The notes under the pieces: model-generated
The model's database searches: none
Seen by the model: the letters and a program-made list of their open reading frames with translations, nothing else
Told to the model about the DNA's origin: nothing
Part shown: in pieces, positions 35,476-45,769 of the stretch
Position numbering within the stretch: the stretch's first letter is position 1
Layout: each line of letters starts with the position of its first letter
NCBI GenBank assembly: GCA_016212095.1
Contig: JACRHH010000035.1
Coordinates: 1 to 64,000 of the forward strand
Direction: 5' to 3'
Length of the DNA stretch: 64,000 bases
Source of the DNA: Nitrospirota bacterium
Lineage (GTDB): Bacteria; Nitrospirota; Thermodesulfovibrionia; SZUA-242
Made by a program: the position numbers and the translations under genes

Positions 35476-36125
35476 TTAATCGACTGAAGCGGGCAGCCGT
35501 CGCAAACAGGCTTTTTCGTGCAATGCTCCTTGCAGAGCCGCACAATCAGCGCGTGATATTCGTTGAACAGTTGCGCGTCCGGAGCAAGATTTGCATGGAA
35601 TAGTTCCTGGACATGGTGATAACCGGCCTTCGCCTCGATTATGCCGTGGCGCGAAAGCACCCTTATGGTGTAGGCGTCGATCACGAACACCGGCTTTTGT
35701 GCGGCATAAAGAATGATCGAGTCGGCTGTCTCCGGGCCAATCCCGTTGACGGATAACAGTTTTTTGCGAAGCGCATGAATGTCGCAATCGGCCATGCGTT
35801 CGATCTCACCTCCGAAGTTGTCCTCAAGAAATCGGCAGAATATTTTCAGCCGCGCCGCCTTCTGCCTGAAATAGCCGGACGGCCTTATCAGTTCCGCAAG
35901 TTCGCTCTCATCGGCCTCAAGTATTCCATCCGCCGACATGATTCCGGCCTGCTTCATGTTGGCTATCGCCCGTTCCACATTGCGCCAGTTGGTGTTTTGG
36001 GTCAGAATCGCGCCTATTGAAACCTCAAACGGCGTTTCGCCCGGCCACCAGTGCTGGGGGCCGAACCGGGCGAAAAGGCGGGCGTAGATGGCGGCAAGCA
36101 GAGGCGGGAGAGGTTGTTTACTCAT
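35451..36125 (-). CDS. Endonuclease III-related DNA glycosylase (COG2231 type)
   Basis: 224 residues. HhH-GPD fold: ILTQNTNWRNVERAI, the helix-hairpin-helix LLSVNGIGPETADSIILY and the catalytic Asp in VFVIDAYTIRV. Where endonuclease III has the lyase Lys (GRKTA), this protein has Glu (GPETA), as in MagIII-like methyladenine glycosylases, so it should be a glycosylase without lyase activity. Four Cys near the end (CKEHCTKKPVCDGC) suggest an iron-sulfur cluster. It overlaps the MacB-like gene by eight bases and may be co-transcribed with the exporter. Confidence 0.9.
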   Translation of the reverse strand: MSKQPLPPLLAAIYARLFARFGPQHWWPGETPFEVSIGAILTQNTNWRNVERAIANMKQAGIMSADGILEADESELAELIRPSGYFRQKAARLKIFCRFLEDNFGGEIERMADCDIHALRKKLLSVNGIGPETADSIILYAAQKPVFVIDAYTIRVLSRHGIIEAKAGYHHVQELFHANLAPDAQLFNEYHALIVRLCKEHCTKKPVCDGCPLQSINNPSQPSP

Positions 36126-37347
36126 ACCTCAGCGCTTCAATCGGATCCAATAGCGACGCCTTCCACGCCGGATAGAAGCCAAAGAAAATCCCCACGAACC
36201 CGGAGAAGCAGAACGACAGCGCAACAGAAAGCGCCGACACATTGGCCGGCCACCCGGCAATGGCCGATATTGCGTATGAGCCTGAGATGCCGAGCACAAT
36301 TCCGGTTACGCCGCCGATCAGGGAAAGCGTGAGAGCCTCTATCATGAACTGAAGCCTGATGTCCCACGTTTTCGCGCCAACCGCCATGCGGATGCCGATT
36401 TCGCGCGTGCGTTCCGTCACCGACACCAGCATGATGTTCATTATGCCGATGCCGCCAACCAGAAGCGACACTGAGGCAATCGCGCCAAGCAGCATGGTCA
36501 TAACCTTCGTGGACTGCTCTGCCGCCTGCATCGCCTGCGTGAGGTTGCGCACGGTGAAATCGTCTTCCTGTTTGGGGCCGATGCGATGCCGCTGCCGAAG
36601 CAGTTCAGCAATCTGGCGCTCGGCGTCAGGGAGTTCCTCAGCGCTCTTTCCTTTCACGATTATCATCCGCACCATGCCCGGAAACGCCGTGCCGAAAAGC
36701 TTTTTCTGGGCGGTGGTCACCGGAACCATTATCGTGTCGTCCTGATCCTGCCCCATCGGCGACTGGCCCTTTGCCTCCAGAGTTCCAATAACAGTAAATG
36801 GAATATTTTTAATGCGTATGATTTTGCCAAGCGGATCGATGCCGCCGAACAGGTTTTCTACAACGGTTTGCCCAAGCAGACAGACCTTTGCGGCGGCCCG
36901 GACGTCTTCCGGCGTGATCGGCCTGCCGGATGCAAGCTGCCAGTCGCGCACCGCGATCATGTCGCCTGTTGTGCCGGTTACGCCGGTTGACCAGTTCCGG
37001 CTCTCATGCACCGCCTGCGCCACGCCGCCGTGAGTTGGCGCGACAAACGCCACAGCCGGGCATTCCCGCGCAATCGCCTCGGCGTCGCCCATCGACAGCG
37101 TGGCCTGGCTGCCCGCGCCCATCCGCACGCCGCCGGCGGTTGTGGCGCCGGGAATAACCATAATCAGATTGCTTCCCATGCTCGAAATCTGGTCGGCTAT
37201 CTGCGCGCGCGCGCCGTCGCCAACGGCCAGCATGGCGATCACCGCGCCCACGCCGATCACTATGCCGAGCATCGTGAGTGCCGAGCGCATCTTGTTTACG
37301 CGCAAGGCGCGAAGCGATATGCGTATGGTTGAGGGGATGTCGATCAT
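36118..37347 (-). CDS. MacB-type ABC transporter permease
   Basis: 409 residues. TM1 at about 20-45 (ALTMLGIVIGVGAVIAMLAVG), a large periplasmic MacB domain (about 50-250), then three C-terminal helices with the FtsX-like SVTERTREIGIRMAVGA and ALRYE end. It lacks its own ATPase domain, which is encoded by the upstream gene (four-base overlap). MacAB-type systems are mechanotransmission pumps that drive peptides, siderophores or macrolides through an outer-membrane channel. No TolC gene is adjacent. Confidence 0.93.
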   Translation of the reverse strand: MIDIPSTIRISLRALRVNKMRSALTMLGIVIGVGAVIAMLAVGDGARAQIADQISSMGSNLIMVIPGATTAGGVRMGAGSQATLSMGDAEAIARECPAVAFVAPTHGGVAQAVHESRNWSTGVTGTTGDMIAVRDWQLASGRPITPEDVRAAAKVCLLGQTVVENLFGGIDPLGKIIRIKNIPFTVIGTLEAKGQSPMGQDQDDTIMVPVTTAQKKLFGTAFPGMVRMIIVKGKSAEELPDAERQIAELLRQRHRIGPKQEDDFTVRNLTQAMQAAEQSTKVMTMLLGAIASVSLLVGGIGIMNIMLVSVTERTREIGIRMAVGAKTWDIRLQFMIEALTLSLIGGVTGIVLGISGSYAISAIAGWPANVSALSVALSFCFSGFVGIFFGFYPAWKASLLDPIEALRYE

Positions 37348-38039
37348 GAAACGCGCTCCCGGCGTTCATCGGAGGCAATAACGCCGTCACGAAACCGGAT
37401 CACGCGGTCTGCGTATGCGGCGATGTCCGGTTCGTGCGTCACCAGAATCACGGTTATGCCCGACTCCCGGTTCAGGCGCGCGAAAAGCTCCATGATCTCC
37501 GCGCTGGTTTTGGTGTCGAGGTTGCCGGTCGGCTCGTCGGCGAATATGACCGGAGCCTCGTTCACAATCGCCCGCGCCACGGCAACGCGCTGCTGCTGGC
37601 CGCCCGAAAGCTGGTTCGGGTGATGATTCTCCCGGCCCTCAAGCCCCACTTTCCGAAGCGCTCCTATCGCCCGCCCGCGCCGCTCCGCCGTTGGCGCTCC
37701 GGCGTAAACCATCGGAAGTTCAACGTTTTCGAGCGCCGATGTGCGCGGCAGAAGATTGAAGCCCTGAAACACGAATCCGGTTTTCCTGTTGCGGATTTCG
37801 GCCAGCTCGTCGCGGGAAAGCCTTCCCACGTCAACGCCGTCAAGCAGATACGAGCCTGATGTCGGGCGGTCAAGGCAGCCAAGCATGTTCATGAAAGTGG
37901 ATTTCCCTGAGCCGGACGGCCCCATGATGGCTATGAACTCGCCGTGTTCGATCACGAGCGAAACACCGGCAAGGGCGTTTACGTCGATGTCGCCCAAGCG
38001 ATACACCTTGGTTACGCCCGAAACCTCCACAAGCGGCAT
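37344..38039 (-). CDS. MacB/LolD-type ABC transporter ATPase
   Basis: 231 residues. Walker A GPSGSGKST, the signature LSGGQQQRVAVARA, Walker B VIFADEPTGNLD and the H-loop VTHEP are intact. The family-specific MNMLGCLDRPTSGSYLLDG and DELAEIRNRKTGFVFQGFNLL mark it as a MacB/LolD/FtsE-like ATPase. It energises the permease encoded next, with which it overlaps by four bases, and overlaps the adaptor gene upstream by one base. Confidence 0.95.
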   Translation of the reverse strand: MPLVEVSGVTKVYRLGDIDVNALAGVSLVIEHGEFIAIMGPSGSGKSTFMNMLGCLDRPTSGSYLLDGVDVGRLSRDELAEIRNRKTGFVFQGFNLLPRTSALENVELPMVYAGAPTAERRGRAIGALRKVGLEGRENHHPNQLSGGQQQRVAVARAIVNEAPVIFADEPTGNLDTKTSAEIMELFARLNRESGITVILVTHEPDIAAYADRVIRFRDGVIASDERRERVS

Positions 38040-39223
38040 CAGAACATCCTCGGCCCCCGCGCCGCCGCGTTCTGGGAATCCTTCGAAGCACCCTGGGAAA
38101 GCGCGTCAACGATCACCTCCGCGCCTTCCGCGATTTCGCCGGATGCCAACGCCGTGAAACTTCCGTCGGTTGCGCCGGTGTTCACGCCAACGCGCTTGGG
38201 CTTGCCGTCGGACAGAATCCATACTCCCGCGCCCCTTGGCTGATCGACTGCGGCAAACGGCTGACTTTTTGCCGCGTCCTTTGGCCTGAACCGAAGCGCG
38301 GCGTTCGGAATCTTCAAGACATTGCCGTGCTGGGCGATTATCACCGACACGTTCGCTGTCATGCCGGGCTTCAGCTTCAACTCCGGATTGGCCACTTTCA
38401 CCACAACATCGTAGCTGACAACGTTCTGAACCGTGATCGGCGCGTTTCGCACCTGCGACACCTCGCCCCTGAACGTTGTGCCGGGCCAGGCGTCAACCGT
38501 GAACTCAACCTCCAGCCCTGCGCTCACGCGCCCGATGTCGGCCTCGGCCACGTTGCTGTCTATCTGCATCTTGGTGAGATCCTGCGCGATGGTGAAAAGC
38601 GTCGGCGTCTGGAAACTTGCGGCCACGGTCTGGCCCACGTCAACGTTCCGGTTGATCACGATGCCGTCAACCGGCGAGACTATGTTGGTGTATCCCATAT
38701 TGGTTTCGGCCATGGACAACGCTGCCCGCGCCTGTTCTATTCCGGCGCTTGCCACGCTCACCTGCGCCCGCGCCATCTGGGCGGCTGTTTCGGCGGTGTC
38801 GAGCGAGCTTTGCGGCGTCAGGTTTTTCGCAAAAAGCTCCCGGCTTCTGCCAAGCGTCCGCTCGGCGTCGGCAAGCGAGGCACGGGCCTTCTCCAGATTC
38901 GCCTCGGCGGCAAGCCTGTTGGCGCGCGCCTCCTCAACCTTCGACTGAAACGGCGCCGGGTCAATGCGGGCGATGATCTGCCCCTTTCGAACCTGCGAGT
39001 TGAAATCGACGTTTATCTCCTTGATAACGCCCGAAACCTGCGTGCCGACCTGCACGGTGGTCACGGCGTTCACCGCGCCGCTTGCGGTCACTGCCTCAAC
39101 GATGTCGCCCCGCACAATCTTCGCGGTGCGGTACTTGGGCGCGTCGTTCTTCTGGCGAAAGAAGAAAAACGCGGCGATTGAGGCGAGGATGACAAGAGAC
39201 GCTACGACTAGATATTTTTTCAT
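38039..39223 (-). CDS. MacA-like periplasmic adaptor (HlyD family)
   Basis: 394 residues. An N-terminal signal anchor (VVASLVILASIAAFFFF) is followed by the lipoyl half-motif EAVTASGAVNAVTTVQVGTQVSG, an alpha-helical hairpin rich in Ala, Glu and Arg (about 95-170), and VVSPVDGIVINRNVDVGQTVAASFQTPTLFTIAQDL. A beta-barrel and a membrane-proximal domain complete it. It bridges the ABC permease to an outer-membrane channel. It is the first gene of the exporter operon. Confidence 0.93.
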   Translation of the reverse strand: MKKYLVVASLVILASIAAFFFFRQKNDAPKYRTAKIVRGDIVEAVTASGAVNAVTTVQVGTQVSGVIKEINVDFNSQVRKGQIIARIDPAPFQSKVEEARANRLAAEANLEKARASLADAERTLGRSRELFAKNLTPQSSLDTAETAAQMARAQVSVASAGIEQARAALSMAETNMGYTNIVSPVDGIVINRNVDVGQTVAASFQTPTLFTIAQDLTKMQIDSNVAEADIGRVSAGLEVEFTVDAWPGTTFRGEVSQVRNAPITVQNVVSYDVVVKVANPELKLKPGMTANVSVIIAQHGNVLKIPNAALRFRPKDAAKSQPFAAVDQPRGAGVWILSDGKPKRVGVNTGATDGSFTALASGEIAEGAEVIVDALSQGASKDSQNAAARGPRMF

Positions 39224-39352: not shown

Positions 39353-40588
39353 TCATATTCCTGCGGGCATCACCGTGGTTACCAGCAGAAACACCGTGAG
39401 CGCGATTATCGTGACTACCGTGCCCCAGGATATGTAATTATAACTTCTGCTGTTCACATATTCGCCCATTATGGCCTTGTTGTTCACGAGCGAGATGGCG
39501 TAAACGAGCACAAACGGCAGAAGAAGGCCATTCATGACCGCAGAGAACACCATCATGAAGACAAGCGGCGCGTTCGGAATTAGCACAAGAAGCGCGGACA
39601 CCACGATCGTTACCGTATAAATCCACATGAACTCCGGCGCTTCCTGAAAACTCTTGTTCACGCCGCGCTCCCAGCCCATCGCCTCGCAGATGTAGTAGGC
39701 TGTCGCAAGCGGCACGATGATCGCCCCAAGCAGCGAGGCGTTGGCGAGGCTTATCGCAAAGATGATGGCGGCGTAATCTCCGGCCAGCGGCCTGAGCGCG
39801 TCGGCTGCTTCCGACGCCTCGTTTATGCGTATTCCCGCCGAAAAAAGCGTGGTGGCGCAGGTTACTATTATGAAAAACGCGATTATGTCGGTTATGCTGC
39901 ATCCGATTATCACATCCAGGCGCGACGCGCTGTAATTTTCCTTGCGTATGCCCTTTTCGGCGATGGACGACTGCAGGTAAAACTGCATCCACGGCGTAAT
40001 CGTGGTGCCGATTATCGCGATGCTAAGATAGATGTATTCGCTGTTCCACTGGAACTCCGGCACGACAGCGCGCCTGAAAACCTCAGGCCAATGCGGTTTG
40101 GCCAGCACGCCGGATATAACATAGCCGAAATATAGCAGGCAGGCGAACAGCAATATCCGCTCCACAAGCCCGTAGCTTCCGCGCGTAACCAGCATCCATA
40201 TGGCAAGCGCGCCAAGCGGAACAGCGGCGTACTTGGTCATGCCGAGAATCTCCATGCTGGCCGCAAGCCCGGCGAAATCGGAAACAGTCGTGCCGAGATT
40301 TGCCACGAAAAGCGCAATCATCATGAAGAAAGTCGATTTCACGCCGTAGTTTTCGCGGATGAGGTCGGAAAGCCCCTTGCCCGTGACCACGCCCATGCGG
40401 GCGATCATCTCCTGAATGACCACGAGCGCCACGGTTGTCGGGATCAGCGTCCAGAGCAGCCCGAAACCGAAACGCGCGCCGGCCACGGAGTATGTGGTTA
40501 TGCCGCTTGCGTCGTTGTCGATGTTGGCCGTGATGATGCCCGGCCCCATCACCGACAGGAAATAGAGAGCCTTGCGCCAGCGCGTCAT
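39353..40588 (-). CDS. Nramp-family transporter with atypical metal site
   Basis: 411 residues, about eleven membrane helices. TM1 reads GPGIITANIDNDASGITTYSVAGARFGFGLLW: the Nramp DPGN metal motif is replaced by D-A-S-G. TM6 has IIGTTITPWMQFYLQSS in place of the usual MPH motif, so the Met that selects transition metals is absent. Established knowledge: Nramp relatives with altered sites include Mg-specific NRMTs and others of unknown substrate. The gene overlaps, by four bases, the upstream gene for a soluble MgtE-type Mg sensor, which supports a Mg role by inference. Confidence 0.9.
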   Translation of the reverse strand: MTRWRKALYFLSVMGPGIITANIDNDASGITTYSVAGARFGFGLLWTLIPTTVALVVIQEMIARMGVVTGKGLSDLIRENYGVKSTFFMMIALFVANLGTTVSDFAGLAASMEILGMTKYAAVPLGALAIWMLVTRGSYGLVERILLFACLLYFGYVISGVLAKPHWPEVFRRAVVPEFQWNSEYIYLSIAIIGTTITPWMQFYLQSSIAEKGIRKENYSASRLDVIIGCSITDIIAFFIIVTCATTLFSAGIRINEASEAADALRPLAGDYAAIIFAISLANASLLGAIIVPLATAYYICEAMGWERGVNKSFQEAPEFMWIYTVTIVVSALLVLIPNAPLVFMMVFSAVMNGLLLPFVLVYAISLVNNKAIMGEYVNSRSYNYISWGTVVTIIALTVFLLVTTVMPAGI

Positions 40589-41847
40589 ACCTTGCGCCTC
40601 TTTTTCTTGGCCGACGGCGGAAGCAGAACGTCAATAATGTCGTCAACCGTCACGATGCCGTGCATGTAGCCGTTTTCGTCAACCACCGGAATGGCAAGCA
40701 CGTTGTACTTCGAGACGATTTCGGCCACGGCCATCTCGTCGTCGCCGGGAGCGACAGACTTCACGTTCGTCTCCATGATGTCGGCCATCAGGCAGTCGGC
40801 CCCGGCCAGCAGAAGCTCTCTAAGCGAGGTCACGCCCATCAGCTTCTCGTCCTGATCCACGATATATATGTAGAAGATCGTTTCCACATGACGCGCGTCG
40901 GTTCTGAAACGCTGCGTCGCCTCCTCAACGGTGAGGTCGGGCGGATATGCGATGTAGTCGTTCGTCATAAGGCCGCCGGCCGTGCCTTCCTCGTGGCCCA
41001 AGAGTTCCTGAATATCCTCGGCGTCTTCCTTCTCTATGTTTTCGAGCAGTTCCTTCGCCTTCTCGGACGGCAGATCCCCGATTATGTCGGCGGCCTCGTC
41101 GGGCGGCATCTCTTCGATGATGTCGGCGGCCTTCTCGGTGTCCATCGCGTTTATGATGTCGGCCTGCATTTCGGGCTTCAACTCTGAAAGCGTCTCGGCG
41201 GCGGTTTCAACGTCGAGGTCTTTCATCAGGTGCGCGCCCTCCTCGCGCGAAACCTGGCTGATTATGTCGGCGATGTCGGCGGGGTGCAGGTCGGCCAGCA
41301 TCTGGCGCGGCACGGTAAGCGCAATCTGGTCGAGCTTTGGCCGAAGCGTCTGAATGTAGTTCCAGCTTATAAGGTTGTGCGACAGGCTCGTCTTGAAGAA
41401 GCCGAGGAATTCCTCGCTTCCGCGCTCTATTCCGAGCCTTCGCAGAAGGCCGCGCATTCCGACGTCAACGGCCAGAAGCACCGCCTCGCTGTTGTAGCCT
41501 TCAAGCTTCACGTCGTTCACGCGCACAACCTTGGCGCCGTTTGCGTCCACAATCTGGCGGTCGAGAAGATCGCGGTTTACCAGCAGATCCTCATCGTTTT
41601 CCTCATACGGCAGCAGGTCGCCCTTGAATATCGAGGCCGAGATTATCTTTTTGTTGAACAGGCTCAGGCTTGCCCACGGGATGTGATAGCGCTTCTTCTT
41701 GCGTTCCACGATCAGGGCCGACACCTTCGGCAACGGATCGCCTTTCACCACTATGAGGTCGCGCACCTTGCCAAGATCCTCGCCCTTGGGGTCGAGAACC
41801 GGCTTATTTGTTATATCACTCGAAAAAACCTCGCCGAAAAAGGGCAT
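40585..41847 (-). CDS. Soluble PRC-barrel / MgtE N-domain / CBS-pair protein
   Basis: 420 residues without any membrane helix. Two PRC-barrel-like segments (about 5-75 and 85-160), the MgtE N superhelical domain (about 170-285, repeats such as AADIIEEMPPDEAADIIGDLPSEKAKELLENIEKEDA), and a CBS pair (about 290-405, SAGGLMT-like EGTAGGLMTNDYIAYPPDLTV) are visible. In MgtE channels this cytosolic block senses Mg and gates the pore; here the pore domain is missing. It starts with a strong AAGGAGG and is coupled to the Nramp-like gene, so it probably controls that transporter. Confidence 0.92.
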   Translation of the reverse strand: MPFFGEVFSSDITNKPVLDPKGEDLGKVRDLIVVKGDPLPKVSALIVERKKKRYHIPWASLSLFNKKIISASIFKGDLLPYEENDEDLLVNRDLLDRQIVDANGAKVVRVNDVKLEGYNSEAVLLAVDVGMRGLLRRLGIERGSEEFLGFFKTSLSHNLISWNYIQTLRPKLDQIALTVPRQMLADLHPADIADIISQVSREEGAHLMKDLDVETAAETLSELKPEMQADIINAMDTEKAADIIEEMPPDEAADIIGDLPSEKAKELLENIEKEDAEDIQELLGHEEGTAGGLMTNDYIAYPPDLTVEEATQRFRTDARHVETIFYIYIVDQDEKLMGVTSLRELLLAGADCLMADIMETNVKSVAPGDDEMAVAEIVSKYNVLAIPVVDENGYMHGIVTVDDIIDVLLPPSAKKKRRKV

Positions 41848-41941: not shown

Positions 41942-42334
41942 TCACCAGATTGTCCGGACTTCCGTGTATTGCCTTGCCACGTCATCCTTCGTTACCAGAA
42001 CACCGCCATGAACGGATGCGGTCGCTATAATGATCCGGTCAGTCGGGTCATTGTGAATGGCGGGAAGGTTGACCGATTTGACGGCGATAGCATTCGTTAC
42101 AGGCAGAAACCTGACAGCCGGGAGGCCTTCGGCAAGCGAGAGCCATTCCTCCGGCGGCATGGCAAGCTCCAGCCTGCCGCGCCTGACAAGCATCATGAAT
42201 TCCCAAACGCTCATGGCCGAGACGCAGATGGCGCTTTTCGCCGCCGCCTGCTCTATGGCCGCCGCCGCTTTCAACGAAAGCTTGCCCGGATCGGACAACC
42301 ACCATATCCATGCATGGGTGTCGAGCACAATCAT
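41942..42334 (-). CDS. vapC: VapC-type PIN-domain toxin
   Basis: 130 residues from the ATG at 42334, preceded by GGGAGG and overlapping the antitoxin stop (ATGA). MIVLDTHAWIWWLSDPGKLS, VSAMSVWEFMMLVRRGRLEL, and NDPTDRIIIATASVHGGVLVTKD contain the four acidic residues of the PIN nuclease. It should cleave tRNA or another RNA when free of its antitoxin. All catalytic positions look intact, unlike the PIN toxin at 1173-1583. Confidence 0.93.
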   Translation of the reverse strand: MIVLDTHAWIWWLSDPGKLSLKAAAAIEQAAAKSAICVSAMSVWEFMMLVRRGRLELAMPPEEWLSLAEGLPAVRFLPVTNAIAVKSVNLPAIHNDPTDRIIIATASVHGGVLVTKDDVARQYTEVRTIW

Positions 42335-42564
42335 GAAAGCGCCTCCCATTCATTCGCCGCAACCGGCTCAAGCGGATCGCGATAACTGACAACGGAATTG
42401 CGCAACCGCGCCATCGCAAGGTCGGGCTCCTCGTGATATGGAACAAGCTTGAGCACCGGCTTGCCGCGATCGGTGATTATAAGTTCCTCGCCGGTTTCCT
42501 GAACCCTTCGAAAAAATTCCAGTGAACGTGGCTTGAACTGTGATTTTGAGACAGCCTTGGACAT
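42331..42564 (-). CDS. vapB: Phd/YefM-type antitoxin VapB
   Basis: 77 residues. MSKAVSKSQFKPRSLEFFRRVQETGEELIITDRGKPVLKLVPY is the Phd/YefM DNA-binding fold (an antitoxin that binds its operator as a dimer); the acidic C-terminal part should wrap the toxin. GGGGAGG lies before the ATG. It precedes vapC with a four-base overlap. The module appears complete. Confidence 0.92.
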   Translation of the reverse strand: MSKAVSKSQFKPRSLEFFRRVQETGEELIITDRGKPVLKLVPYHEEPDLAMARLRNSVVSYRDPLEPVAANEWEALS

Positions 42565-42643: not shown

Positions 42644-43522
42644 CTACGAGGAGATGCGGGCTTTCTGCGCCGACCGCGCGCTTTCCCTGCGGTCAAAGCC
42701 GTAAGCAAACAGGCAGTCATCGCCAAGTTCCTTCCGGCACGCTGTTATGCACTCGCCGCAGTTCACGCAGTTGATGGTCTTGAGCGGCGAGCGCGGCTTC
42801 ACTCCCATGAAACAGGCCTTTTCGCAGCCCCGGCAGTCGGTGCATTTCGCGAAGTTGTCGCGGTCGAATTTCACCCGGAGCGCAACAGGGCTTATCCACG
42901 CAAACAGCATCTGCATCAGGCCGGGCGCGCAGACGTATTTGCAGAACCGGTGGCGAACAAGTACCGAGGTGACGAACATGTAGATATATGTGCCAATAAT
43001 TGCGGCCTTCACGCCTGTTGCCGGCGAAAGCGACGCAGCCTGCCTGAACACCTCAGCCGGCGCTATAAAGAAGCCGGCCAGCATCACACCCACAATCGGC
43101 GGCAATGCGATGACTGTCAGTGTTGCAAGCAGCGCGTAAGCGAATCTGGCGGCGGCGCTGCCGCCGCTTGCCCGCCGGATGCGAAGGCTGAAAAAGTCGG
43201 CAAGCTCGAACAACGCGCCCTCCGGACAGAGCCATCCGCAGAACGCGCGCCCGAACAGGAATCCCAAAAGCGGGAATATGCTTAAAACCACGATCCACGG
43301 CAGAATGGCGTTCAGGAAAATCTGAAGCGCCACATGGCCTGAGCCATGCAGGCTGCGGTCGATGTAAAAGCCGGGGTCAAGCCCAAGAGTCCAGACACGC
43401 CCAAGCAGGAAAAGCTCCTTCGACGCCGTATCGTACCGGAGAATGTCGAGGGCCGGAAGCATCAGAAACAGGATCGCAAACCCTGCCTGAGTGAGTCTTC
43501 GCATGATGTGAAGCCGTGTCAT
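42644..43522 (-). CDS. Membrane polyferredoxin (NapH/CcoG-like 4Fe-4S protein)
   Basis: 292 residues, four or five membrane helices. The cytoplasmic CxxxCP-type motifs FCGWLCPEGALFEL and FCKYVCAPGLMQM are the NapH/NosR/RdxA hallmark, and two ferredoxin sets follow near the end (CTDCRGCEKACFMGV and CVNCGECITACRKEL). Such proteins pass electrons from the quinone pool or take part in metal-cofactor assembly. The gene is downstream of norB on the same strand but beyond its terminator. A role in NO reduction or in copper handling with CopA is possible; neither is shown. Confidence 0.9.
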   Translation of the reverse strand: MTRLHIMRRLTQAGFAILFLMLPALDILRYDTASKELFLLGRVWTLGLDPGFYIDRSLHGSGHVALQIFLNAILPWIVVLSIFPLLGFLFGRAFCGWLCPEGALFELADFFSLRIRRASGGSAAARFAYALLATLTVIALPPIVGVMLAGFFIAPAEVFRQAASLSPATGVKAAIIGTYIYMFVTSVLVRHRFCKYVCAPGLMQMLFAWISPVALRVKFDRDNFAKCTDCRGCEKACFMGVKPRSPLKTINCVNCGECITACRKELGDDCLFAYGFDRRESARSAQKARISS

Positions 43523-43568
43523 GTTTTTTTATAGCATTCGTGGCGAGCAAACCGGTATGAGCCTGCTC

Positions 43569-43613
43569 ATAAAAAACGGGGCTGCCTTTGGAGGGGAGTT
43601 ATCGGCAGCCCCG
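43569..43613 (-). terminator. Terminator of norCB
   Basis: On the minus strand CGGGGCTGCC (43613 to 43604) and GGCAGCCCCG (43586 to 43577) form a perfect 10-base stem with a 17-base loop, followed by TTTTTTAT. It lies 26 bases after the norB stop. Confidence 0.88.
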
Positions 43614-43638
43614 ACTGGGAGGAGACTTTAGCTGACGC

Positions 43639-45030
43639 CTATGCGGCTTTTTCGGCAAACCGTGCCGATGCAACCGTAACCGGCTCGCGGCCAAGCCTGA
43701 AATAGTCGAGCACAAACAGCCCGACTCCGTAGAGGAATCCGAAGCCGAACAATACGCGGAATATCCAGAACCAGAGGTTATATGTTCCCTTAACCGTCAC
43801 GTAGTCGAGCCCAAGCAGGCGCTCCATGTAGGTCTGCACCATGCCCGCGCCTGTTATCGTAAGCACGATGAACACCATCGACACCGTCATCCACCAGAAC
43901 GAGCGGTATCCGCGCGACTGGTTGTACTCGGTCACGCCCCGAATGTGCGGCAGCGTTATGTAGATCATGGCAACCACAAGAAGCACATACGCGCCGTAGA
44001 AGGCCAGATGGCCGTGCGCCGTTGTAATCTGTGTGCCGTGCGTCCATTTGTTCACCTGCGGCAACGTATGGATCACGCCCCAAAGACCCGCGCCCACGAA
44101 GTTGAAAATGGCGTGAGCCGTGGCCAGAAACAGTCCCAGCTTGTTCGAGACAACGCGGTTTTCTCGCGTGGTGCGAAAGGCGTCCCACACCATCAGCAGA
44201 AGCGGAACAGGCTCAAGCGAACTGAAGATTCCGCCAACCCACAGCCAGTAGCCGGGGGTTCCTATCCAGTAGTAGTGATGTCCCGTGCCGAGAATTCCGG
44301 TGAACAGCACGAAGCCAACCTCGATATACATCCATTTTTCGAGAACCGCGCGCGGAGCGTTCGTCACCTTCATCAGCATGAAGGCCAGAAGCGCGCCCGC
44401 GATAACCTCCCATGCGCCCTCAACCCAAAGGTGAATTACCCACCACCACCAGAACTGATCCTTCACCATGCTCTTGGTGTAGAACATGCCGGGCAGGTAC
44501 ATGAGCGTGAGAAAAACAAGCCCGCCAACAAGCGTTCCCTGAATGCCTGTCCAGTGTTTTGTCTTGAACATCGTCATGACGTTGTTTACAAGAAACAGGA
44601 TTACAGAAAGGGCTATCAGCCAGTCGGCCCATCGCGGAGCCTCGATGTATTCGCGGCCTTCGCTCAGCGGGTTGATGCCGAATATCGGGCTGTTCGCCTG
44701 CGGATTCAGGCCCATCCAGACGTAGCCCAGTATCACCAGCCCAACCGCGGCAACCGTGGCCCAGAACTGGAAATGCGCAAGCGGAACGCTCCAGAGTTCG
44801 CTTTGCGATTCCTCAGGCACAACGTAGTATGTTGCGCCCATAAGGCCCGCCAGCAGCCAGACCACGAGGGCGTTTATGTGAAGCGTGCGTATTATGTTGA
44901 AGTTCAGGATCAGCACGTCGGGCCATATGAACTGGATTGCGGCGATGATGCCCACAACGGTCTGCACAAGGAAGAGAACAACCGCGAATGTGTAGAAATT
45001 CTGCGCTATCTTCTGGCTTTCATATTTCAT
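43639..45030 (-). CDS. norB: Nitric oxide reductase large subunit NorB (cNOR)
   Basis: 463 residues, twelve membrane helices. TLHINALVVWLLAGLMGA, WWWWVIHLWVEGAWEVIAG (non-heme iron His and Glu), GTGHHYYWIGTPGYWLW (His-His), SSLEPVPLLLM (the conserved Glu near the site) and TTAHGHLAFYGAYVLLV (heme ligands) identify a cytochrome c-dependent NO reductase, not a cbb3 oxidase. It reduces 2 NO to N2O. AGGGGTG precedes the ATG, 10 bases after norC. It ends at a strong terminator; norD and norQ are not adjacent. Confidence 0.96.
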   Translation of the reverse strand: MKYESQKIAQNFYTFAVVLFLVQTVVGIIAAIQFIWPDVLILNFNIIRTLHINALVVWLLAGLMGATYYVVPEESQSELWSVPLAHFQFWATVAAVGLVILGYVWMGLNPQANSPIFGINPLSEGREYIEAPRWADWLIALSVILFLVNNVMTMFKTKHWTGIQGTLVGGLVFLTLMYLPGMFYTKSMVKDQFWWWWVIHLWVEGAWEVIAGALLAFMLMKVTNAPRAVLEKWMYIEVGFVLFTGILGTGHHYYWIGTPGYWLWVGGIFSSLEPVPLLLMVWDAFRTTRENRVVSNKLGLFLATAHAIFNFVGAGLWGVIHTLPQVNKWTHGTQITTAHGHLAFYGAYVLLVVAMIYITLPHIRGVTEYNQSRGYRSFWWMTVSMVFIVLTITGAGMVQTYMERLLGLDYVTVKGTYNLWFWIFRVLFGFGFLYGVGLFVLDYFRLGREPVTVASARFAEKAA

Positions 45031-45040
45031 GTCGTCACCC

Positions 45041-45706
45041 CTATTTAAGTGAAATCAGGTATTCGCTGAGAAGCTTCATTTCGTCATCGGTCAGGTGCTC
45101 GTAGGCGGGCATTGCCGAGCCTTGCACTGTTCCGGCAGGGTTTTTGAGGTGCGAGACATGCCAGTCAGGGTTGGGATGGCGCGCTCCGGCTTTCGACAGA
45201 TCGGGGCCGGACGTTCCGCCCACGCCGCCGATGATGTGGCACGATGCGCAGCCGTGCTTCTGATAGACGGCGATGCCTCCGGTCTGAGCCTTCCGCATGG
45301 CGGCAAGCACCGGTTCGGGCGGCCAGCCGTTTGTATCGACCCTCGATGTCCAGTCAAGAAAGGCGACCAGTTTTTCGGCCTCCGACGGCGTTATGCCGAG
45401 TACCGGCATGGCGGAATTGGGGTTTGTCTTTCGCGGGTTGACGAGAAACGCCTTCAGATACCCGGCAGGCTTGTCCCGCGTAACCTTGGTCAGATCCGGC
45501 GCGAAATACGATCCGTTGCCGAAAATCGTGTGGCAGCCGATGCAGTCGTACTTGTGCCAGGCCTGCTTGCCCTCGTTCACGGCTTCCGTGATCTCCGGAG
45601 AACGGGCGTCGATCTGTTTCATGGTGTCGAATGTGAGGGCGAGGAAAATCAGAAAAAAGAAGATACTGCCGAAGATGAACAGGTTTCGTGCTCCCTTGTT
45701 GCTCAC
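45041..45706 (-). CDS. norC: Nitric oxide reductase cytochrome c subunit, diheme NorC
   Basis: 221 residues from the GTG at 45706, which has GGAGG 8 bases upstream; a GTG three codons earlier is possible. One N-terminal membrane anchor is followed by a first cytochrome c domain, CIGCH at 55-59 in the NorC context DCIGCHTIFGNGSYFAPDL, with Met100. A second cytochrome c domain has CASCH at 153-157 and Met199 in QGSAMPAYEHLT. Standard NorC is about 150 residues with a single heme, so this is a NorC fused to an extra cytochrome c. It passes electrons to NorB, encoded next. Confidence 0.93.
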   Translation of the reverse strand: MSNKGARNLFIFGSIFFFLIFLALTFDTMKQIDARSPEITEAVNEGKQAWHKYDCIGCHTIFGNGSYFAPDLTKVTRDKPAGYLKAFLVNPRKTNPNSAMPVLGITPSEAEKLVAFLDWTSRVDTNGWPPEPVLAAMRKAQTGGIAVYQKHGCASCHIIGGVGGTSGPDLSKAGARHPNPDWHVSHLKNPAGTVQGSAMPAYEHLTDDEMKLLSEYLISLK

Positions 45707-45769
45707 GATTACCACCTCCAGATATTGGCCGTATCGAAAACCCGAACGCTACGGGTATCCATATTCGCA

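Follow-up and report, generated by a model that had tools for sequence, protein, structure and literature searches.

NRMTs (Nramp-related Mg transporters) are LeuT-fold carriers, for which Mg2+ transport uncoupled from protons is a defining trait. The nearest described systems are those of Shin et al. (2014), who reported that most NrmT genes adjoin a gene for the MgtE cytosolic domain and proposed feedback regulation or metal chaperoning for this MgtE-like neighbour (PMC4072509). In the pair tested, from Acidobacterium capsulatum, the NRMT gave full rescue of Mn uptake and rescue of Mg uptake at millimolar Mg only, and co-expression of the MgtE-like gene brought no further rescue (PMC4072509). 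The Ca_c0685 NRMT works without the sensor (PMC4072509), and EleNRMT, whose structure (PDB 7qia) was determined by Ramanadane et al. (2022), works alone in liposomes (PMC8806188). EleNRMT transports Mg and Mn, and it was unstable when produced alone (PMC8806188). The main text of PMC4072509 does not mention PRC or CBS; that of PMC8806188 mentions neither these nor an operon, and no reference to the sensor neighbour was seen in it. What the MgtE-like gene does next to NRMTs was not settled in 2014, and among the papers searched we found no later one that settles it. In MgtE itself, losing any single site of Mg2-Mg7 blocks channel closure; Mg4 bridges the N domain and the plug helix, and two sites act across subunits, Mg5 connecting the plug helix with CBS and Mg7 connecting the N domain with CBS (PMC5882242).

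The gene pair in the window (the whole stretch of 64,000 nucleotides analysed here) is a member of this published kind, since both the pair and Mg feedback in trans were reported in PMC4072509. As in the Ca_c0685 operon and in Acp2976/Acp2977, the MgtE cytosolic domain is encoded by a separate gene beside an NRMT, and the same feedback proposal applies. In contrast to those pairs, the one in the window lacks an M-box Mg riboswitch: none was found in the 64 kb at the gathering or the relaxed threshold. What the present analysis adds is the near-fixed linkage of the two genes, the replacement of MgtE, the exchange of NRMT partners, the fusion of the sensor to a pore and a DUF1003 neighbour; neither in PMC4072509 nor in the other papers searched did we find an account of partner exchange or pore fusion. 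The comparisons lead to a testable claim, namely that the transporter was swapped several times under the same sensor, and that in genomes lacking the NRMT the sensor was fused to a genuine MgtE pore.

Table 1. Features of the window, with strand and supporting evidence.
Feature	Position	Strand	Evidence or remark
Stand-alone sensor gene	40585-41847	(-)	420 aa; ORF and Pfam
NRMT-type Nramp transporter gene	39353-40588	(-)	411 aa; ORF and Pfam
Overlap of sensor stop and transporter start, 4 bases ATGA	40585-40588	(-)	junction sequence
PIN-domain protein gene	41942-42349	(-)	Pfam E 8e-19
Genes for NapH-like, oxidase and cytochrome c proteins	42644-45715	(-)	
Genes for HlyD-type, ABC ATPase and permease proteins	36118-39223	(-)	

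Open reading frames, Pfam matches and the junction sequence agreed exactly with the preliminary description as to the gene coordinates, the MgtE_N domain and CBS pair without a pore, and the four-base overlap (Table 1). The junction reads ...AAGGTATGACGCG, in which the TGA stop (40585-40587) and the ATG start (40586-40588) lie within four shared bases, placing the two genes in different reading frames; the ATGA overlap makes translational coupling likely. Within the sensor, Pfam recognised a PRC barrel (residues 5-69, E 2e-9), an MgtE_N domain (187-287, E 2e-29) and two CBS stretches (E 6e-17), the CBS pair covering about 294-408. No MgtE pore domain was found by Pfam after the CBS pair in the 420-aa frame, and the protein ends after CBS2 in the polybasic tail LPPSAKKKRRKV. 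PRC barrels had been claimed in the plural, of which the first stands and the second does not go beyond a weak Pfam match at the relaxed threshold only. A second PRC-like domain is nevertheless probable at about residues 90-135; in the AlphaFold model of the sensor monomer, built from 9 sequences and with a pLDDT of 56, strands at about 98-125 are a hint only. The transporter carries an Nramp domain (E 8e-99).

The sensor matches the MgtE of T. thermophilus (PDB 2yvx, E 1.5e-36) over the whole stretch from N domain through CBS2; its residues were mapped on this protein, with Ile positions checked against PMC5882242. In T. thermophilus numbering, D91 and D95 are each present in 77 of 77 aligned sensors and D247 in 76 of 76, the position of E59 is acidic in 74/77, and D250 is retained in 70/76. 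The acids of sites Mg4 (D91 and D247), Mg6 (D95) and Mg7 (E59) are thus common to both proteins. They differ at D226 of site Mg5, which is replaced by N in the sensors; this replacement was considered as a mark of stand-alone sensors and dismissed, because ordinary Nitrospirota MgtEs share it. The sensor further differs in its extra N-terminal PRC region, in the lack of a pore and in a truncated plug helix, of which only the first turns remain before the polybasic tail (LPPxAKRKRRKV or similar). Having the N domain and CBS pair with the Mg-site acids, D226 excepted, and lacking the plug helix and transmembrane pore (PF01769), the sensor protein is not an MgtE channel.

As for the transporter, its best PDB match is EleNRMT, over the whole length (E 8e-105, 44% identity over the aligned length), and the best classical Nramp follows at E 6e-30. 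The replacements that had been noted, DASG for DPGN and TPW for MPH, are seen as NDASG in TM1 and GTTITPWM in TM6. They agree with the NRMT signature, DxxG in TM1 and TxxA/T in TM6 (PMC8806188). This signature is common to EleNRMT and the window protein, as is a W replacing the MPH histidine; the two differ in TM6 (TxxA in EleNRMT, TxxT here) and TM1 (DAGG and DASG, respectively). A tree separated the transporter from DraNramp and from the host's MntH-like protein with support of 100/100. PDB match and tree both group it with NRMTs rather than with classical Nramp/MntH proteins, and the earlier view of a non-canonical, Mg-type Nramp holds in that the protein falls in the NRMT branch.

The gene content of the host, whose genome is 100% complete, was assessed by family searches. 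The host's second Nramp (L062) is classical, with DPGN and MPH motifs. In the host genome the searches found neither CorA nor an MgtE pore (PF01769). Nothing passed the cut-off for MgtA, the nearest ATPase scoring far better as a Ca-ATPase. A class-level CorA search listed 20 genomes without CorA; 13 of them have the pair, and none of these 13 has an MgtE pore. Since Mg2+ uptake is essential and other importers are absent, the NRMT is the best candidate for the Mg importer in these genomes. We infer, from this absence of other importers, that Mg2+ is the main substrate of the window NRMT.

To follow the linkage of the two genes, both proteins were used as queries against the same 396 Nitrospirota genomes, and the best 150 sensor genes by score were considered (most of full length, a few cut; weaker-scoring sensors lie outside this count). 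Among the 150 listed, 136 are followed directly downstream on the same strand by an NRMT gene, which excludes a chance origin of the arrangement; the possibility that the sensor occurs mostly without the Nramp gene can be set aside. The exact four-base overlap was seen, as aligned, in 32 of the 136, with many more within a few bases; it is the commonest form of the junction and was found in most relatives examined. In eight of the 150 the NRMT lies on another contig, in some because of contig ends, while at least four or five are truly apart (the genes are apart in G148, G196, G236, G242 and G338). The remaining six listed sensors initially lacked an NRMT. Two of them (G142 and G266) are pore fusions and not stand-alone sensors, one (G073) stands at a contig end, and one (G068) comes from a genome that is 85% complete. 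G132 has an interrupted sensor gene and a distant pair in flipped order, and no NRMT of the window type was found there. This leaves G352 as a clean exception, with an intact sensor and no NRMT found. The pair is therefore nearly fixed in Nitrospirota.

Outside this phylum, the two genes are adjacent in 9 of the 12 plasmid loci examined (Alicyclobacillus, Citrobacter, Serratia, Leifsonia, Arthrobacter, Cellulomonas, Mycolicibacterium, Rhodococcus and Pseudarthrobacter), and their order flips. Viral copies were searched for and none was found. An M-box Mg riboswitch precedes the pair in Alicyclobacillus and Leifsonia, which belong to two other phyla. Flipped pairs, NRMT before sensor, occur on IncHI conjugative plasmids of Citrobacter (L113) and Serratia (L154) and in Cellulomonas (L151), where they adjoin genes for an ArsR-type regulator and a metal P-type ATPase. 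In Leifsonia (L114) and Mycolicibacterium (L152), an MgtC/SapB gene lies after or near the pair.

We then compared the presence of the pair with that of the MgtE pore. Of the 396 genomes, 139 have the pair without the pore, 171 have the pore without the pair, 5 have both and 81 neither, so that the pore occurs in 5 of 144 pair genomes; this exclusion is clumped by lineage, for which reason a Fisher p-value overstates it, and one family of full-MgtE genomes was heavily sampled. Mixed families exist as well, the host's own family including two genomes (G190 and G370) with MgtE and without the pair. For the most part, the pair stands in for MgtE itself. The pair is also absent from further members of family f6, among them G040, G047, G067, G072 and G075; in those that were checked, neither CorA nor an MgtE pore scored above cut-off.

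Two clades can be told apart among the transporters beside the sensors: clade A (DASG or DAGG with TPW), which includes the window protein, and clade B (mostly DAGG with APW), whose motifs resemble EleNRMT. On the sensor tree, in which rows from other phyla had very long branches and were kept out of interpretation, clade A and clade B partners are interleaved, amounting to at least eight partner changes. The sensors L036 and L076 are 97% identical, whereas their transporters, one from each clade, are 61% identical; here the transporter was replaced while the sensor next to it hardly changed.

In G142 and G266, the PRC-N-CBS module and the MgtE pore (PF01769) are joined in one frame of 607 aa, which is 61% and 53% identical, respectively, to residues 1-408 of the window sensor; the same arrangement spans a contig break in G230. 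The searches made found no NRMT in any of these three genomes. Both complete fusions nest among stand-alone sensors (62-row set, support 99/96), and their identity to these holds to about residue 385-400, after which MgtE sequence follows. Most likely, then, the module was joined to the pore secondarily. The preliminary description had the sensor move from MgtE to the Nramp, which the tree does not bear out: its root gives no direction, and the one clear event is the reverse, a sensor joined to a pore. A related PRC-N-CBS gene is followed by one for a DUF1003 membrane protein in Nocardia farcinica (L115) and in Tsukamurella (L150), in the latter with a four-base overlap at the junction. The sensor is hence not exclusive to NRMTs, and Mg sensing may have in DUF1003 a partner that has gone unrecognised. 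A CorA gene is located some 2 kb upstream of the sensor in Nocardia. A 1037-aa fused sensor apparent at the same locus was rejected as a stop-free artefact of G+C-rich DNA, and no Nramp match occurs there.

Gene anatomy, linkage, residue conservation, partner exchange and replacement of MgtE form the observed basis of the model that we favour with moderate confidence, a two-gene Mg2+ unit in which the NRMT would import Mg2+ and the sensor would inhibit it in trans at high Mg2+. The sensor would act as the soluble regulatory half of MgtE, most likely as a dimer through its CBS domains. At high cytosolic Mg2+, ions bound at the equivalents of the T. thermophilus MgtE sites Mg4, Mg6 and Mg7 would connect the N domain with the CBS/first-helix region and lock a compact form, which would dock on the carrier from its cytosolic side and inhibit it; at low Mg2+, the N domains would swing free and transport would resume. 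Contact with carrier or membrane probably involves the conserved polybasic tail, which occupies the position of the MgtE plug helix, and the PRC domain(s). If true, the model would show how the domain that gates a channel can act in trans on a carrier unrelated to it. A wider proposal, which we put forward more tentatively, is that PRC-N-CBS could be a portable Mg2+ brake that has been rewired, with two NRMT clades in trans, an MgtE pore in cis and, in actinobacteria, a DUF1003 neighbour; it would then be an ion-bridged allosteric lock acting in trans on a secondary carrier.

The brake model is threatened mainly by the A. capsulatum result and by those sensors of actinobacteria that have no Nramp next to them. 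The former is weak but real counter-evidence, because an inhibitor is not expected to improve rescue. The function of Ca_c0685 and EleNRMT without a sensor also counts against the model, as do the change of D226 (Mg5) to N and the lack of a Mg riboswitch in the window. CBS domains bind ATP or AMP, and the CBS of MgtE binds ATP. The sensor might accordingly regulate the carrier in response to Mn2+ or a nucleotide rather than Mg2+, the carrier moving mainly Mn2+, as might be expected from the NRMT of A. capsulatum, which has an MgtE-like neighbour and behaved mainly as a Mn transporter (PMC4072509), and from EleNRMT, which moves both metals (PMC8806188). We regard this as unlikely, given that the host has its classical Nramp and no other recognised Mg importer, that the Mg lock residues are retained in the sensors, and that M-box riboswitches lie upstream of the pair in two other phyla.

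To a similar degree we doubt that the sensor is a constitutive subunit, chaperone or tether serving the stability, folding or localisation of the carrier, with Mg binding secondary. The overlapping, tightly coupled genes, the resemblance of the PRC domain and polybasic tail to docking elements, and the instability of EleNRMT made alone (PMC8806188) would all fit such a role; yet NRMTs work without it (PMC4072509; PMC8806188), the strict conservation of the Mg-site acids is left without explanation, and a mere subunit is not expected with two NRMT clades, an MgtE pore and DUF1003. Finally, the operon might be conserved without direct contact between its products, the sensor acting elsewhere, for example on another Mg-dependent membrane process. 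The five genomes with the genes apart and the intact G352 sensor speak for this, but the unlinked genomes still keep both genes, NRMT-less genomes carry the module fused to another Mg pore, and the sensor gene is interrupted in G132, where no NRMT of this type was found; we consider it highly improbable.

Other genes noted near the pair in the window are on the same strand (Table 1). Just upstream of the sensor gene lies the gene for the PIN-domain protein, a candidate VapC-like ribonuclease. Beyond it are genes for a NapH-like 4Fe-4S membrane protein, a homologue of heme-copper oxidase subunit I (463 aa) and a cytochrome c matched in two stretches; neither oxidase subunit received an NCBIfam name above cut-off, and the pair might be NO reductase-like or of an unusual cbb3-like kind. 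On the other side of the pair, genes for an HlyD-type fusion protein and an ABC ATPase and a permease ORF follow a MacAB-like order.
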